From positions 1 to 38,239 of the IMG/VR virus record IMGVR_UViG_3300045452_000039: a DNA stretch of 38,239 nucleotides; one strand, 5' to 3'. This DNA comes from a virus. The first letter of the stretch is position 1; every line of letters begins with the position of its first letter. Both the position numbers and the translations under genes were made by a program. The notes under the pieces were generated by a model that made no database searches, was not told the origin of the DNA, and saw only the letters and a program-made list of their open reading frames with translations. This document shows, in pieces, positions 5,342-11,776 of this stretch.

Positions 5342-6235
5342 TTAAGTGAGGCCTTCGATGGTCAGGCTGCAGTAGCTGACCGTCGGATAGGCAAGGTCGA
5401 TCGAGAATTCTTTGTAGAAGCCAAAGACGGTGAGGCTCTCGAAGCTTTCCGAACCAATCCAGAGCACGGGCGTCGCGCGGATCGAAGCAAGCGTGCGATG
5501 CACGTCATCAAGCGCATCAGTTTGCATGACGACCCGGGCTGACATGCGCTTGGCAAAGGCGCGCTCCACGACCGAAGTCACCCCGAACTGGTCGGTCTCT
5601 TTGCGCGAAAAGTCGATGATCCCGAGATCTACCCCGTGCTCCGTATCGCCAATGTCAAACTGACGGCCGACCAGCAGGGTCCCGCATTTGACGGCGTCGG
5701 CTGGATTGTCCCGCGTCAGGGTAACAGTCAGGACCCCCGTCTCGTAAACGGGCACATCGAGGAACAGCAGCCCGGTCTTTTTGCCAAGCGGCTCGAAGAA
5801 CCAGGCAAACCAGGTGTCGATCGCATTCCCGCCGATGTTGAGGCTCTGCGTCCGGCTGTAGATCTGATTACCAGAGACCGTGAGCGTAACGCTGGCACTC
5901 TCCGCCTCGATATCGATCAGCGCAAGACCATCAGCAGCGCCCGGAGCAAGCACGACCTGCAGCGAACCGGTACGTGTGGTTGCCGTGCCCACGCGCGCAT
6001 CGAACATGGCCCAGCGGTTGGTCGGCCCCAAGTCGAGCCACTTGGTCGGATCAGTGGCCGGATTCGCGCCGGTAGATGCCGCGAGCGCTTCGTACCTGCG
6101 GTGCGTCGAGGTCAGGATGACCCGGGCGCCGACAGCATAAGCCGTGCCAGATGCCCAGACAGCATAATCGTTCTCCGGAGCCGTGCTGCTGTTCAGCATG
6201 GCATCGGTCAATGTGGTCGGCCGGATCAGCTTCAT
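5342..6235 (-). CDS. Distal tail or baseplate protein, hypothetical
   Basis: A 297-residue protein whose start ATG overlaps the tape-measure stop as ATGA. Residues 20-67 (NDYAVWASGTAYAVGARV, RRYEALAASTGANPATDP, KWLDLGPTNRW) resemble carbohydrate-binding-module type 5/12-like repeats that are frequent in phage tail proteins. The rest looks beta-rich. In siphoviruses the gene after the tape measure usually encodes the distal tail protein, which caps the tube and carries the adsorption parts. Assignment rests on that position plus the CBM-like N-terminus; no direct family match is claimed. No long gpJ-like host-specificity protein is found in the window, so this protein or something beyond the left edge must serve that role. 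Confidence 0.6.
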   Translation of the reverse strand: MKLIRPTTLTDAMLNSSTAPENDYAVWASGTAYAVGARVILTSTHRRYEALAASTGANPATDPTKWLDLGPTNRWAMFDARVGTATTRTGSLQVVLAPGAADGLALIDIEAESASVTLTVSGNQIYSRTQSLNIGGNAIDTWFAWFFEPLGKKTGLLFLDVPVYETGVLTVTLTRDNPADAVKCGTLLVGRQFDIGDTEHGVDLGIIDFSRKETDQFGVTSVVERAFAKRMSARVVMQTDALDDVHRTLASIRATPVLWIGSESFESLTVFGFYKEFSIDLAYPTVSYCSLTIEGLT

Positions 6236-9200
6236 GCCGCGGTTCTCACTGCCAACGCATCGCCGTCCGGTGTCACGCGCTCGAGGATGCGGGCAGTTTT
6301 GCTGGTTCCAGAGGCAATGGCGGCAGAAGCAATCCGCTGCTCGTCGCGCAGGTCAGAAAGCTCCTGTTTGAGCGACGCCAGCCCATCGATCAGTACGGTT
6401 GCGCTGTCATTTGCCGAGGTGGTCGCTGTTGCTGTCTGGGTAGAGGCAAACTGCTCCCACCAGCTGGGGTTGGTCCACGCTGCCGCCGCCGCAGTCTCGG
6501 TCGGCAGCCCGGCCACCGCGTTGATGATTGCCACCGTCTGCTCAAGGCTCGCTGCCGTCTGCCCCTGAATGCGGGCGAGATCCTGCGCAGAGGTGGCCGC
6601 ATCGGCGGCTGCGTTCAATAGGGTCTGGCTGAGCCCGGGGAGCGACTTGGCCGCTTCCTGGTCACCACTGCGGGCCGCAAGCGTTGCGGCGTTGAACTCG
6701 GAGAGCGCCTGAGCGTAGGTCTTGGTGCCGCCATCCATGCTGCCACGGATCCGGGCAACTTCCGCGAGCAGGCCGTCGGTGATCTGCGTCCAGGCCGAGC
6801 GCAGCTTTTCGGCAGCAGCTGCCGCTTCATCGGCGGCTTTCTGCTGGTCCTGCAGCGCCCAGATCTGCTCCTGCAAGGCGCGGTTGCTTTCATCGAGCTG
6901 GGCCAGTTCGAGGGCGCGCAGGGCCGCTGTGTCGCCTTGCAGTTCGAGCAGCTGGCGCTCGAGGCCAAGGCGCTCGTCGACAATGGCCGCTGCACTGGCA
7001 GCATCCTGCGCCGCGCCGATCAGATCGGCAAAGGCAGGTGCCAGCTGGATCAGCGCGACATAGGCCGCACGCCCGGCCTCGGTGGTGAGGTCCTGTGCGT
7101 CGACCAGTGCCCGGAAGCCTGCGATGCTGTCGGGGAGCGTCAGGCCGAGGCTGCCGAATACCTGGTTCATCTGGGCGGTGAGCGCGGCGGTCTGTTCGGC
7201 CTTGGTGTAGAAGAGCGAGAAGTAGTCGCTGGTGGCAGACGCCATGTCGCTCGCCGAGCCGAACAGGTCGAAGAGGTTCATCTTGGCCGTAAGGCTCAGC
7301 CCCTCGACCGAGGTGCCAAGCAACGCCAGCGACGAGGTCACGGCCTCAATGCTGGAAGCCACCCGGACCAGCGTCTCGAAATAGCCTTCACCGACCTTCT
7401 GGAACTGCTCCAGTCCCGGGATCGCTGCCCGCGCGATGCTGTCGGCAGCAGCGCCGAAGACAGCGGTCAACTTCTCCTGGATCTGCTCGCCGGTAAGGCC
7501 TTTGAGATCGATCTTGCCGACGTTGACGACAAAGCCAGCGAGCCGTGATTGCACTTCGCCCAGTGACATGCCCAAGGGCCCTGCGGCAGCCGAGATGGCG
7601 TCATAGAAGCCCGAAAAGATCAGGCTGAACTGCTGCTCGAGCTCCGCGCTCGCTGCGGCATACTGGGTGGAGTAGCTCGAGCCCACGCTGATCCCGAAGA
7701 ACTTCTTCGTCTTCTTGACGTCGGTGTAATAGCTCGCGTCAAAACCACTCGAGAGGATCGATCCCAGCGACTGAGCGCCGCCGTAGATGCCCTGGCCGAT
7801 GATGCTGGTCTTGGTGCCAAAGAGCGCATTGACGATGCTGCCCAGCACCTTGCCGAGACCGCCCAGAAGCTTTGCGCCCAGGAAGCCGATGGCGGCACCG
7901 ATAGGCCCCGCAATGGCAAGGCCGATGCCCGCACCAATCAGCGAACCGGTCTTGCCACCGACGAAGTTCGAAACGCCGGTGAGCGCCGAGGTCAGCCCGC
8001 CGAGAATACCTGTCGCCTTGGTCCCGGTCTGGATCCCGGCTGCCGAGGCATCAATGCCGCCGGTGCGGATGATGAGATTGGTGAGCCCGCCGATATTGGC
8101 CTCGATGTTCTTCAGCGAAGCCAGCATGGCAGCGGAATACCGCATGGTCAGTGTATCGACCTCGCGCAGATGGTCGATCGACTTGGCGATACTCTCGGAC
8201 TTCGCCGTGCTGTCGCCGAACACCGTGCCAGTGCCGTCGTTGGTGACGGGCGGCTTGGCAGAGCCGCCGAACGCCCCGGAAATGGCAACACCCAGCGAAG
8301 CGATCACACCGGCCGTGACGGCACCTGCGGCGATGTTGAGTGGGAACGGCAGCGAGCGGATGGCGTTCACCACCGCTTCGACCGCCTTGATGCCGGTCGT
8401 GATAATCGAATTGCCCTGTTCGACACCGGCGCGTGCGGTATCCGAGGCTGCCATCGCGGTGTCGCTGGTGACCTTGGCGGCGGTTTGCACGCCAATGAGG
8501 CCGATCTTCACCGCGGCATTCTTGATCGCGATCGCGAGCTCGAAGGCACGGAAGACCTTCTCGGCCGCCAGCATCGCCTTGTAGCCGTCCGAGCCTTCCT
8601 CGAAGAACCCCTTCGCTGCCGATGCGAGGTTGCCATAGTGGTTGATCTCGGCCGAGGCCTGCGCTGCACGCGCATCGGCATACTGGAACGAAGTCTTGCC
8701 GTATTCGCGCTCGGCGTCGGCGACCCGCTTGGCGGATGCCGCCTGCGCCGAGGCAAAGCGGGTGATCTCGACCGTAATGCCGCCAATCGCGCCGCCGACC
8801 GAACCGAAGGCATCGGCCATGTTGCTGGCAGCCGCCTGCGTTGCCGAGACCATGTCCTCGAGGCTCTGCAGAAACTGTTCCTGCTCCTTCAACTGAAAAT
8901 CGTGCTCGATGAGCGCGGTCTTGGCGGCCCTGTAACGCTCCCAGGCAGCCGCGCCGCGTTCGAGCACGATCTGCTCTTTCTCGGCTTCAAGGTTCGCCAG
9001 TTCCTGGGCCTTGGTGGATTTGCCGAGCATTGCGATCTGGAGCTCGAGCGGTGCGACCGAATTGCGGATGAACTCCTTCTCAGCCTGCGCCTTCGTGGCC
9101 TTTTCCCAGGCCTCGCCCGCCTGCAGGATCGCGATACGCGCTTCGTCGGTCGGCGCCTTGACGGCGGCCATCGCCACTTCCATGCGCTTGATCTCGATCG

Positions 9201-10380
9201 GGGTCTTGCCGATCTTGGCGGTCTCGAGCTCGAGGTTCCGGGCAAAATCCTGCGCGGCCTTCAGCGCCTTTTCCGCCTCGGTGGTCTTGGGGCCTTTGGC
9301 GGTCTTGTCCGCCTTGTCGCCCCGGATCTCTTCGGCCTTGGCGGCAAGGCGCGCCTTGGCGGCTGCGATGGTGTTCTCACGCCACTTGGCCGAGAAGCTG
9401 TCCATCATCGACATGGCATCGCCAAAGGCGGCTGAGAATTCGCTCTGGATCTGGCCCGCCATGCGCGCGGTCGAACCGGCAAAGCTGTTTTCCATGCGCG
9501 GCAGAGCAACGCTCTCCACGCGCGAGATCGTCGTGAGGCCAACCCGCTCGAGGAGCGGGTTCACTTGGCCCGCGAGCCAGTTGATCGCGGCAATCGCCTT
9601 GTTCGCCATGAACTCGAGCGCTTGAAGCGCAAGGTTGGCTGCCCCAACGGCCGCTTCACCGATTACGCCGGGCAGCGAGGACCAGAGGATTTTGATCGCG
9701 CCGAACCCGCCAACCCAGCCGGCATAAATGAAGGCGATGGCGTACTTGCCAACCTGCATGATCGCGTCGAACGCCGTAACCGCCCAGTCCTTGAGGGTCG
9801 AGAACACCGATCCCAGGCTGAGGCCGTCCGAGACGGTCTTCCACAGCCCCTTCATGGTGTCGCCGACGGTGATCCCGACGGGTCCGAGCTTCTCCATCTC
9901 CTTCTTGGTGAGACCGAGGCTCTGGGCGTATTTGTCGAGTTCGCCGGTCTGCTTGACGCTCGACTGGAACATCTTGAACGCCCCAAACGCCAGCGCTGCC
10001 GCAGCGGCGGCGGCCAGCAAATAGGGATTGGTGAGCGCGGCGGCAGCCGAACTTGCAGCAAGGCCAACCAGCGCACGGGCCATCCCGCCAATGCCCATGC
10101 CGGCCTGCATGCCGATCTGGGCGATCTGCGTGCCCTGCTGCATGAAGACGGTCATCGGCTTCTGGCCCGAGAACAGACCCACAACCATGTCATTAAGCTG
10201 GTACACGAGGTTCTGGACCTGATGCCCGGCAAGCTTGGCCGAGCCGCCCATGCGGGTGAGACCGCCGCCGCCTGCCGAGCCCAGCGCCTTGTCCGCACGC
10301 GAGGCGGACTCCGTGATGTCTCCCATCGCGCCTGCCACCGAGCGCTTCATGTCAGCCATCTCCTTCTGGAGACGCGCCAC
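6232..10380 (-). CDS. Tail tape measure protein
   Basis: At 1382 residues this is the longest gene, as expected of a tape measure, which sets tail length and enters the host envelope. Residues 60-165 include VQNLVYQLNDMVVGL and several Ala/Gly-rich hydrophobic helices; later parts are long Ala/Glu/Gln helical stretches (for example LELAQLDESNRALQEQIW), more hydrophobic Gly-rich segments (IGAGIGLAIAGPIGAAIGFL) and coiled coils. The frame begins at GTG 10380, but the natural start seems to be ATG 10419: it overlaps the upstream stop as ATGA and has AGGAG eight bases before it. That reading meets TGA at codon 4 (10410-10408) and then continues in frame through EIELITNVARLQKEM. An alternative restart is ATG 10350, with AAGGAG nine bases upstream. 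Confidence 0.9.
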   Translation of the reverse strand: MARLQKEMADMKRSVAGAMGDITESASRADKALGSAGGGGLTRMGGSAKLAGHQVQNLVYQLNDMVVGLFSGQKPMTVFMQQGTQIAQIGMQAGMGIGGMARALVGLAASSAAAALTNPYLLAAAAAAALAFGAFKMFQSSVKQTGELDKYAQSLGLTKKEMEKLGPVGITVGDTMKGLWKTVSDGLSLGSVFSTLKDWAVTAFDAIMQVGKYAIAFIYAGWVGGFGAIKILWSSLPGVIGEAAVGAANLALQALEFMANKAIAAINWLAGQVNPLLERVGLTTISRVESVALPRMENSFAGSTARMAGQIQSEFSAAFGDAMSMMDSFSAKWRENTIAAAKARLAAKAEEIRGDKADKTAKGPKTTEAEKALKAAQDFARNLELETAKIGKTPIEIKRMEVAMAAVKAPTDEARIAILQAGEAWEKATKAQAEKEFIRNSVAPLELQIAMLGKSTKAQELANLEAEKEQIVLERGAAAWERYRAAKTALIEHDFQLKEQEQFLQSLEDMVSATQAAASNMADAFGSVGGAIGGITVEITRFASAQAASAKRVADAEREYGKTSFQYADARAAQASAEINHYGNLASAAKGFFEEGSDGYKAMLAAEKVFRAFELAIAIKNAAVKIGLIGVQTAAKVTSDTAMAASDTARAGVEQGNSIITTGIKAVEAVVNAIRSLPFPLNIAAGAVTAGVIASLGVAISGAFGGSAKPPVTNDGTGTVFGDSTAKSESIAKSIDHLREVDTLTMRYSAAMLASLKNIEANIGGLTNLIIRTGGIDASAAGIQTGTKATGILGGLTSALTGVSNFVGGKTGSLIGAGIGLAIAGPIGAAIGFLGAKLLGGLGKVLGSIVNALFGTKTSIIGQGIYGGAQSLGSILSSGFDASYYTDVKKTKKFFGISVGSSYSTQYAAASAELEQQFSLIFSGFYDAISAAAGPLGMSLGEVQSRLAGFVVNVGKIDLKGLTGEQIQEKLTAVFGAAADSIARAAIPGLEQFQKVGEGYFETLVRVASSIEAVTSSLALLGTSVEGLSLTAKMNLFDLFGSASDMASATSDYFSLFYTKAEQTAALTAQMNQVFGSLGLTLPDSIAGFRALVDAQDLTTEAGRAAYVALIQLAPAFADLIGAAQDAASAAAIVDERLGLERQLLELQGDTAALRALELAQLDESNRALQEQIWALQDQQKAADEAAAAAEKLRSAWTQITDGLLAEVARIRGSMDGGTKTYAQALSEFNAATLAARSGDQEAAKSLPGLSQTLLNAAADAATSAQDLARIQGQTAASLEQTVAIINAVAGLPTETAAAAAWTNPSWWEQFASTQTATATTSANDSATVLIDGLASLKQELSDLRDEQRIASAAIASGTSKTARILERVTPDGDALAVRTAA

Positions 10381-10407
10381 ATTGGTGATGAGCTCAATCT
10401 CGAGGGT

Positions 10408-10430
10408 TCAAGCCTTCATGGGTTGGGCTC
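10408..10430 (-). promoter_or_regulatory. Ribosome site and natural tape-measure start followed by an in-frame TGA
   Basis: On the minus strand AGGAG is followed after eight bases by ATG AAG GCT TGA. The ATG (10419-10417) shares bases with the upstream chaperone stop (ATGA). The TGA at 10410-10408 is in frame with the tape measure, and the codons after it read like a native N-terminus. This site therefore decides where tape-measure translation starts and whether it is impaired. Confidence 0.65.
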
Positions 10431-10895
10431 CTTCGAGATCATGAGCGAGCGGAAAGCATTGGTCACTTTCCGGGAAACCTCATCACGGTTGAGGCTGGAC
10501 GTTGCCGTCCAGGGCGGCGGGCAATCGGGTTCGCGGGCCCGTACCGTCTCGGCGACAAAGTCGACCGAGAGGCGGCGTAGGAGCCGCGTTGTCCAGGGCG
10601 GGAGATCTATTCCGGAACAGTGCTGCCAGTGATCGATCGACGCCCATGAGATGGGCACTGGCCCCATGGCGCCAGCCTCGCTCGGCCCAAGATCCATCAG
10701 ATGCTCGATGATCCAGGGCGTGCGGATTGGCGGCATGTCGGGTGTGAGATAGTCCACTGCCATGCGCTGCATGCGGGTCAGTGGTTCGGGATCGGGGTCT
10801 GTGCGACCTTTACTGCTGCTGCGAGGCTTGGGCGCGGTGCCTAGCCACGCCAATTGCCGGACGTAGAGGCTCAGCTCTGCCCTGAGCTCTTCGTA
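10416..10895 (-). CDS. Tail assembly chaperone, frameshift extension (GT-like T domain)
   Basis: This frame encodes 159 residues from the frameshift site to the stop. Its first codons (YEELRAELSLYVRQLAWLG) read as proper protein but have no ATG. The longest start-bearing version begins at TTG 10853 (145 residues) with no ribosome site. The frame sits -1 relative to the preceding chaperone and is reached through the slippery site at 10895-10901. In lambda and many siphoviruses such a second frame is made only as a C-terminal extension of the first chaperone; the T part binds the tail tube subunit while the G part coats the tape measure. Fusion at the heptamer would give 131 plus 159, or 290 residues. 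The stop overlaps the tape-measure start as ATGA. Confidence 0.8.
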   Translation of the reverse strand, partial: YEELRAELSLYVRQLAWLGTAPKPRSSSKGRTDPDPEPLTRMQRMAVDYLTPDMPPIRTPWIIEHLMDLGPSEAGAMGPVPISWASIDHWQHCSGIDLPPWTTRLLRRLSVDFVAETVRAREPDCPPPWTATSSLNRDEVSRKVTNAFRSLMISKEPNP

Positions 10896-10901
10896 AAATT
10901 T
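10869..10901 (-). promoter_or_regulatory. Programmed -1 ribosomal frameshift signal
   Basis: The heptamer A AAT TTT (10901-10895, minus strand, spaced in the zero frame) fits the X XXY YYZ rule for tandem -1 slippage: Asn-AAT and Phe-TTT would re-pair as AAA and TTT. Seven bases after it a stem forms between GCTCAG (10887-10882) and CTGAGC (10874-10869) with a seven-base loop; the zero-frame stop TGA (10873-10871) lies inside it. The -1 frame from here is open to 10416. Slippery site, spacing and hairpin all match the standard architecture. Confidence 0.75.
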
Positions 10902-11287
10902 GCCCAGTCATTGATGTGGGCGGCAACCTGGGCAGCAATGAACCCAATCGAGGGGTCAGCATAGGCCTTGCGGAACAGCTCCTGGCCTTCGAGACCATCG
11001 GCGGGCGGATAGGCAAAGCCGTTGAAGCTGACCGTGCAGGCGGCGAGGAAGTCGGCCTGTTCGGCGAGCTTTTCCTCGGCCGTCTGGTCCATCTTTCCGC
11101 GCTTCTTGATCTTGTCCATCAGCTGGTTCTGCTGGCGAGCCTGTGCGCGCTGGTAGACCTTGGAGCCAGGACCATAGACGGTGATCGAGAGACGCTTTCC
11201 CTTCTCGTCGAACAGCGGGGCATCGTCGCCGCCGACGAGTTCAACAGTGGAGGTCTCGGTGGCGGCAAGCTTGGTAATGTCAAACAT
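10871..11287 (-). CDS. Tail assembly chaperone (G-like)
   Basis: A 138-residue protein between the tail tube and tape-measure genes, the invariant place of the G-type tail assembly chaperone. It opens with MFDITKLAATETSTVELVGG, similar in style to tube-associated chaperones, has a basic central helix (VYQRAQARQQNQLMDKIKK) and ends NDWANFTKSSGQS. Lambda-like G proteins bind the tape measure during assembly and are absent from the finished virion. The last eight codons overlap the frameshift signal, so a minority of ribosomes should make a longer G-T fusion. The family is assigned by position, size and the frameshift rather than by a specific motif. Confidence 0.75.
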   Translation of the reverse strand: MFDITKLAATETSTVELVGGDDAPLFDEKGKRLSITVYGPGSKVYQRAQARQQNQLMDKIKKRGKMDQTAEEKLAEQADFLAACTVSFNGFAYPPADGLEGQELFRKAYADPSIGFIAAQVAAHINDWANFTKSSGQS

Positions 11288-11314: not shown

Positions 11315-11776
11315 TCAGGGGGCGAGAACTTCGACGATGCCCACACCGGCGGTGTTGGTGGTGAGTTCGAGGGTCACAGAGGCGGTGGTGATCTGGTCGA
11401 CCGAACCGACGTTGACCTTGAAGCTCATGACCTGCGCCTGGAAGTAGTACTTGTCGCCGTTCTGGGTGGTGACGAGGAAGCTGTGGTCGCTGTCCGAGAG
11501 CGAGGCGGACTTCAGCAGGATCTGACCGGCATCGTCGGTATCGAGGCCGAGCTGAATGGTCATCGTGCCCTGATTGAAGCTGCCCTTCTTCTTGACCACG
11601 CCGCGGCTGCCGACAGGGTTGAAGGTGACGAGATTGAACTCGCGCCCGAACTCGCCAAGGTCGGAGACTTCGCCAACCACGGTCATGGTGAGCGCGTTGT
11701 AGCCGGTGGCATCGAAGGTCGCAGGGGTAGAAGCCGACACCTTCAAGGTGGTGCCGGCGGAAGTCCGAACGGTCAT
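11315..11776 (-). CDS. Major tail tube protein
   Basis: A 153-residue beta-rich protein (GTTLKVSASTPATFDATGYN, GEVSDLGEFGREFNLVTF, GSRGVVKKKGSFNQGTMTIQ, SFKVNVGSVDQITTASVTLE). The GE.SDLGEFGREFN pattern and the final ELTTN strand are typical of the long-tailed phage tube protein family, which stacks as hexameric rings. With no sheath gene nearby, the tail should be non-contractile. Upstream is the tail-completion gene, downstream the assembly chaperones, the standard siphovirus order. It is usually one of the most abundant virion proteins. Confidence 0.85.
   Translation of the reverse strand: MTVRTSAGTTLKVSASTPATFDATGYNALTMTVVGEVSDLGEFGREFNLVTFNPVGSRGVVKKKGSFNQGTMTIQLGLDTDDAGQILLKSASLSDSDHSFLVTTQNGDKYYFQAQVMSFKVNVGSVDQITTASVTLELTTNTAGVGIVEVLAP

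Follow-up and report, generated by a model that had tools for sequence, protein, structure and literature searches.

The DNA analysed here, a single stretch of 38,239 nt (the window, to which all coordinates refer), carries on its minus strand the genes for a major tail protein, a G-like and a T-like tail assembly chaperone frame and a tape measure protein, in that order. Tail completion genes precede the major tail protein gene. This is the gene order of lambda-type G/GT systems, and the locus occupies the G-T position of lambda-like phages. The features are as follows.

11315..11776, minus strand: major tail protein gene (PHROG 158, E 9e-17), directly upstream of G
10871..11287, minus strand: G-like tail assembly chaperone ORF, 138 aa, with an ATG start and a GGAG Shine-Dalgarno (SD) sequence upstream
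10908..10910, minus strand: TGA closing the -1 frame upstream of the heptamer
10895..10901, minus strand: slippery heptamer A AAT TTT, in frame with the G ORF
10871..10873, minus strand: 0-frame stop codon TGA of G
10869..10887, minus strand: candidate hairpin GCTCAG-GGCAGAG-CTGAGC, with a 6-bp stem and a 7-nt loop, 7 nt past the heptamer
10888..10873, minus strand: competing stem register AGCTC/GAGCT, 5 bp with a 6-nt loop
10416..10895, minus strand: T-like -1-frame domain, 159 aa plus stop, the C-terminal part of the predicted GT fusion, with no SD of its own
10419-10416, minus strand: ATGA overlap of the T stop with the tape measure start; the family start is the ATG at 10419, with the SD AAGGAG
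6232..10419, minus strand: tape measure protein gene (Pfam TMP_2, E 1e-13; PHROG 7740, E 3e-53), directly downstream of T

Sequence matches of the two chaperone frames are weak in the window. The G ORF matches PHROG 313 'Tail assembly chaperone' at E 6e-4, and T scores 15.2 bits against Pfam PF23812 (Phage_TAC_18), below the gathering cutoff of 27. T from the remote relative L432 reaches 62.6 bits with the same family, above the cutoff, and two other remote relatives come close to it. A protein search of phage records returned a single match for G, gp45 of Roseobacter phage CRP-6 (29% identity), and none for T. AlphaFold models of G and T have mean pLDDT values of 56 and 51, respectively, too poor for structural comparison.

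On the minus strand, the G ORF ends with ...GAC TGG GCA AAT TTT ACG AAG AGC TCA GGG CAG AGC TGA. The initial annotation had placed a heptamer A AAT TTT in the zero frame at the end of the G-like gene, and it is found there exactly, at 10901..10895. Its 0-frame codons are AAT TTT and the -1 frame goes on with TAC GAA. G has near its end the in-frame X XXY YYZ heptamer expected of a lambda-type junction. Since the -1 frame is closed by the TGA at 10910..10908, opens only 6 bases upstream of the heptamer and then stays open to the TGA at 10418..10416, any -1 shift is confined to 10907..10871. The initial annotation also gave correctly the openness of this frame from the heptamer to 10416, the sequence YEELRAELSLYVRQ ahead of TTG 10853, and the length of the predicted fusion, 290 residues, of which 131 come from G and 159 from T.

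Such a motif is rare in the window. Across its 22 main ORFs, X XXY YYZ heptamers occupy 13 of 8143 in-frame sites (0.16%), and AAATTTT occurs in frame a single time. The chance expectation for the allowed stretch 10907..10871, which holds ~12 in-frame positions, is ~0.02 heptamers.

Conservation of the slippery heptamer

Several hundred loci were recovered by scanning viral contigs and bacterial genomes. We compared 90 unique junctions, the window included, which were found from the G protein sequence upstream of the site without use of the heptamer. AAATTTT is present in 86 of the 90, a count that does not stand for independent events as the junction sequences share ancestry. The 86 comprise all 85 close members and the more distant L424; the other four (L425, L426, L427 and L429) are all remote relatives. 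In the close members the wider context GCA AAT TTT ACG is also identical (85/85). The alignment check proposed in the initial annotation, conservation of the heptamer in homologous phages, thus comes out in its favour. The hosts include isolates of Novosphingobium, Sphingobium and Sandarakinorhabdus as well as metagenome-assembled genomes of Brevundimonas and Phenylobacterium.

The nucleotide sequence around the heptamer is held more tightly than the rest of the two genes. Among 55 representatives that are less than 95% identical, synonymous diversity reaches the minimum of the whole G/T reading between G codon 128 and approximately T codon 9, and is normal beyond. Codons GCA129, AAT130 and TTT131 of G and TAC1 of T are invariant in all 55, while GCA is rare at the other alanines of G and both TTC and AAC are commoner elsewhere in the gene.

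An error can leave two ORFs in different frames that meet at a homopolymer-like run, and G and T might be a single gene split by a one-base indel or by a mistake in sequencing or assembly. The same arrangement recurs in all 90 unique junctions, which come from independent contigs and include those of Novosphingobium, Sphingobium and Sandarakinorhabdus isolates; a homologue with G and T fused in one frame did not turn up in this set. We reject this explanation, which has next to no chance of being correct.

Reading of the T frame

T overlaps the 3′ end of G in the -1 frame and, as in lambda-type systems, has neither a start codon nor a ribosome site of its own. Between the G stop and T codon 23, 7957 of 9917 pairwise differences affect the third codon position as read in the -1 frame, and for T codons 9-23 pN/pS is 0.09 in this frame versus ~3 in each of the others. 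This substitution pattern indicates that the -1 frame is under purifying selection right after the 0-frame stop.

A separate T protein could be made by reinitiation or translational coupling after the G stop, starting at TTG 10853, which sits 18 nt past that stop, or at ATG 10772; the window has ATGs at -1-frame codons 42 and 45. However, no SD precedes TTG 10853 in the window, whereas both G and the tape measure gene have one, and codons 9-23 already evolve as a -1-frame protein. TTG 10853 is found in only 9 of the 90 junctions. In 69 of them no ATG, GTG or TTG occurs within the first 15 -1-frame codons, and in 67 no possible start precedes codon 40 (in the L171 group the first is codon 54); several remote relatives have none before codon 36-56. 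Because start codons are mostly absent, the conserved -1-frame peptide must be read from upstream. A start tied to termination of G is also at odds with L331, in which the G stop lies 21 nt further on and the heptamer is retained. The initial annotation had named, as the case that would count against it, homologues whose second frame has an ATG and a regular ribosome site; its proposal withstands this comparison, given the 69 junctions that are startless over 15 codons. We reject an independent T start as very improbable.

Motif exchange and the candidate downstream hairpin

A profile search of Sphingomonadales and other alphaproteobacterial genomes yielded 11 remote G homologues. In ten of them G has a canonical heptamer at its end, and T is open in the -1 frame. 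The motif itself varies. G GGA AAC is present in L425, L427, L428, L429, L430 and L434 (a weak homologue in which T is doubtful), where it lies upstream of the site in the window by one codon. L426 has G GGA AAG, which is lambda's own heptamer, a few codons downstream of the position of the window's site. T TTT TTG is found in L432, and A AAT TTT in L424 and L431. The remaining homologue, L423, has no canonical heptamer and shows T_TT.T alone; its downstream hairpin is the most stable of those folded for the 11 remote relatives (-19.8 kcal/mol). In these relatives the junction lies at the same place as the window's site or within a few codons of it. The device has been kept while the motif was exchanged, which is what selection on frameshifting predicts. 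A further candidate, L433 (E 3e-4), whose sequence is interrupted by a stop, was rejected as a chance match.

The variety of motifs also bears on transcriptional slippage, which might be suspected at an A/T-rich run within a G+C-rich gene and would place the shift in the transcript instead of on the ribosome. The GGGAAAC or GGGAAAG of the relatives contains no long run, and the exchange of motifs obeys the ribosomal X XXY YYZ rules. To our knowledge, runs of 3 A and 4 T are moreover shorter than those at established transcriptional slippage sites. This explanation is rejected as exceedingly improbable. The conservation of the heptamer, the startless T frame and the exchange of motifs give strong support to the central proposal of the initial annotation, a programmed -1 frameshift that joins two tail assembly chaperone frames. 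On this comparative sequence evidence, we put the probability that the site is a programmed -1 ribosomal frameshift of the lambda G/GT type at about 0.95.

The accompanying hairpin is less clear-cut. The described spacer of seven bases (ACGAAGA), 6-bp stem (arms 10887..10882 and 10874..10869) and seven-base loop are all present, but the register AGCTC/GAGCT, which excludes the 6-bp stem, is the one held in the 60-nt minimum free energy fold. The 6-bp stem can be extended by AGAG/CTCT (10890..10865). In 40 distinct sequences, at least five of the six pairs of the longer stem are retained in 39, and at least four of the five pairs of the shorter register likewise in 39; neither register is intact in every sequence. 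A hairpin is likely to form here, in one or the other of these registers.

Even with a genuine frameshift, the short stem may be a by-product of a Glu-Leu codon repeat in the T frame (GAG CTC ... GAG CTG), a reading that qualifies the ribosomal frameshift and does not compete with it. GAGCTC is self-complementary, and the E-L..E-L pattern is conserved as protein. Covariation is slight, consisting of two double changes, the stability of the 60-nt fold is ordinary when compared with dinucleotide shuffles (z -0.5), and a strong hairpin is absent in half of the remote GGGAAAC relatives. On the other side, synonymous recodings that keep the -1-frame peptide fold less stably at this point than the native sequence (the native fold has a mean z of -2.07 across 44 related sequences; P 0.0125 for the window), the low synonymous variation extends across the stem, and L014 shows a double change that replaces C-G by G-C. 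We consider an origin of the stem in the codon repeat unlikely, although it retains an appreciable chance.

Proposed mechanism, known systems and the tape measure start

In a programmed frameshift of this type, most ribosomes would translate G as far as the TGA at 10873..10871 and release the 138-aa chaperone. We infer that the remainder, whose tRNA-Asn and tRNA-Phe are paired with AAT TTT, move back one base to AAA TTT, probably aided by a hairpin a few bases downstream. The slipped ribosomes would then read T through to 10416 and produce the 290-aa GT fusion. By analogy with lambda, the G part may bind the tape measure protein and the T part recruit tail tube subunits, and the ratio of G to GT would be expected to matter for tail assembly. 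In E. coli, a host and context other than the present one, H_HH.U_UU.Y motifs, with A_AA.U_UU.U among them, rank with the -1 sites of highest efficiency (Sharma et al. 2014, PMC4066793).

Frameshifting in lambda G/GT and its wide conservation are established (review, PMC5009743). Like the lambda genes, those of the window lie between the major tail protein and tape measure genes, a -1 slip near the end of G would give a short G and a longer GT, and T has no start of its own. The window differs from lambda in its heptamer, A AAT TTT, in its candidate downstream hairpin and in its proteins, which are remotely or not detectably related to those of lambda. Lambda's motif reappears in the prophage relative L426.

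Other alphaproteobacterial phages also have a pre-tape-measure chaperone with a -1 frameshift. The Caulobacter phages phiCbK and Colossus have AAAAAAC and GGGAAAC at this frameshift, respectively (PMC3556154), and a frameshift is reported for the majority of the Rhodobacter capsulatus phages in one set (PMC8601537). The phiCbK motif differs from the AAATTTT of the window, whereas that of Colossus is also found in the window's remote relatives. A partial literature search found no paper describing AAATTTT in a tail chaperone gene.

The site is real and very likely functional, and represents a device already known from lambda and many tailed phages, so that the understanding of phage tails or of recoding is unchanged. 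It does correct the annotation, in which the 290-aa product would otherwise be missed and T mis-started at TTG 10853, as has apparently happened in CRP-6. The large and well-conserved A AAT TTT set, with its natural motif swaps, offers a comparative series for the trade-off between slippery motif and hairpin.

CRP-6 gp45 is a remote homologue of G, and at the gp45/gp44 locus (L435 2741-3171) too a -1 frame leads from one gene into the other. This frame opens at GTG GAT TTT ACG and continues as GFYECLTGELLEY into gp44, which the deposited annotation, showing no frameshift, starts from an internal TTG. From its sequence, an unannotated -1 frameshift probably joins gp45 and gp44 at G GAT TTT, a motif different from that of the window.

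At the other end of T, the stop codon overlaps the tape measure start (ATGA, GTGA or TTGA) in 62 of 79 relatives, with the SD inside the end of T; an SD is present at the tape measure start in 78 of 79. The overlap could couple translation of the tape measure gene to that of T. A wider possibility, which we hold rather unlikely, is that one alphaproteobacterial prophage lineage has repeatedly exchanged its motif (A AAT TTT, G GGA AAC, G GGA AAG, T TTT TTG and T_TT.T) at nearly one place, with hairpin strength tuned to the motif and the frameshift level being what selection keeps; L423, alone in having just a tetramer, would fit such tuning through its especially stable hairpin. In the 62 relatives with the overlap, the frameshift might by coupling also feed the output of tape measure protein.

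The window's own tape measure start (10419-10405, minus strand) reads ATG AAG GCT TGA ACC, with an in-frame TGA at codon 4, which is a Gly codon in the other 88 unique relatives. A GTG at 10380 on the same strand is unique to the window, its close relatives having GTC, GTT or ATC, and is a possible replacement start, with no good SD.

In L030, L044, L155 and L157, an extra ORF lies at or just past the end of T, before the tape measure start; it resembles HNH/NUMOD4-type endonucleases by eye only. The C-terminal part of T in L155 (2998-3477) and L157 (2998-3477) matches that of L030 (3393-3869) while the N-terminal part differs, which suggests recombination inside T.
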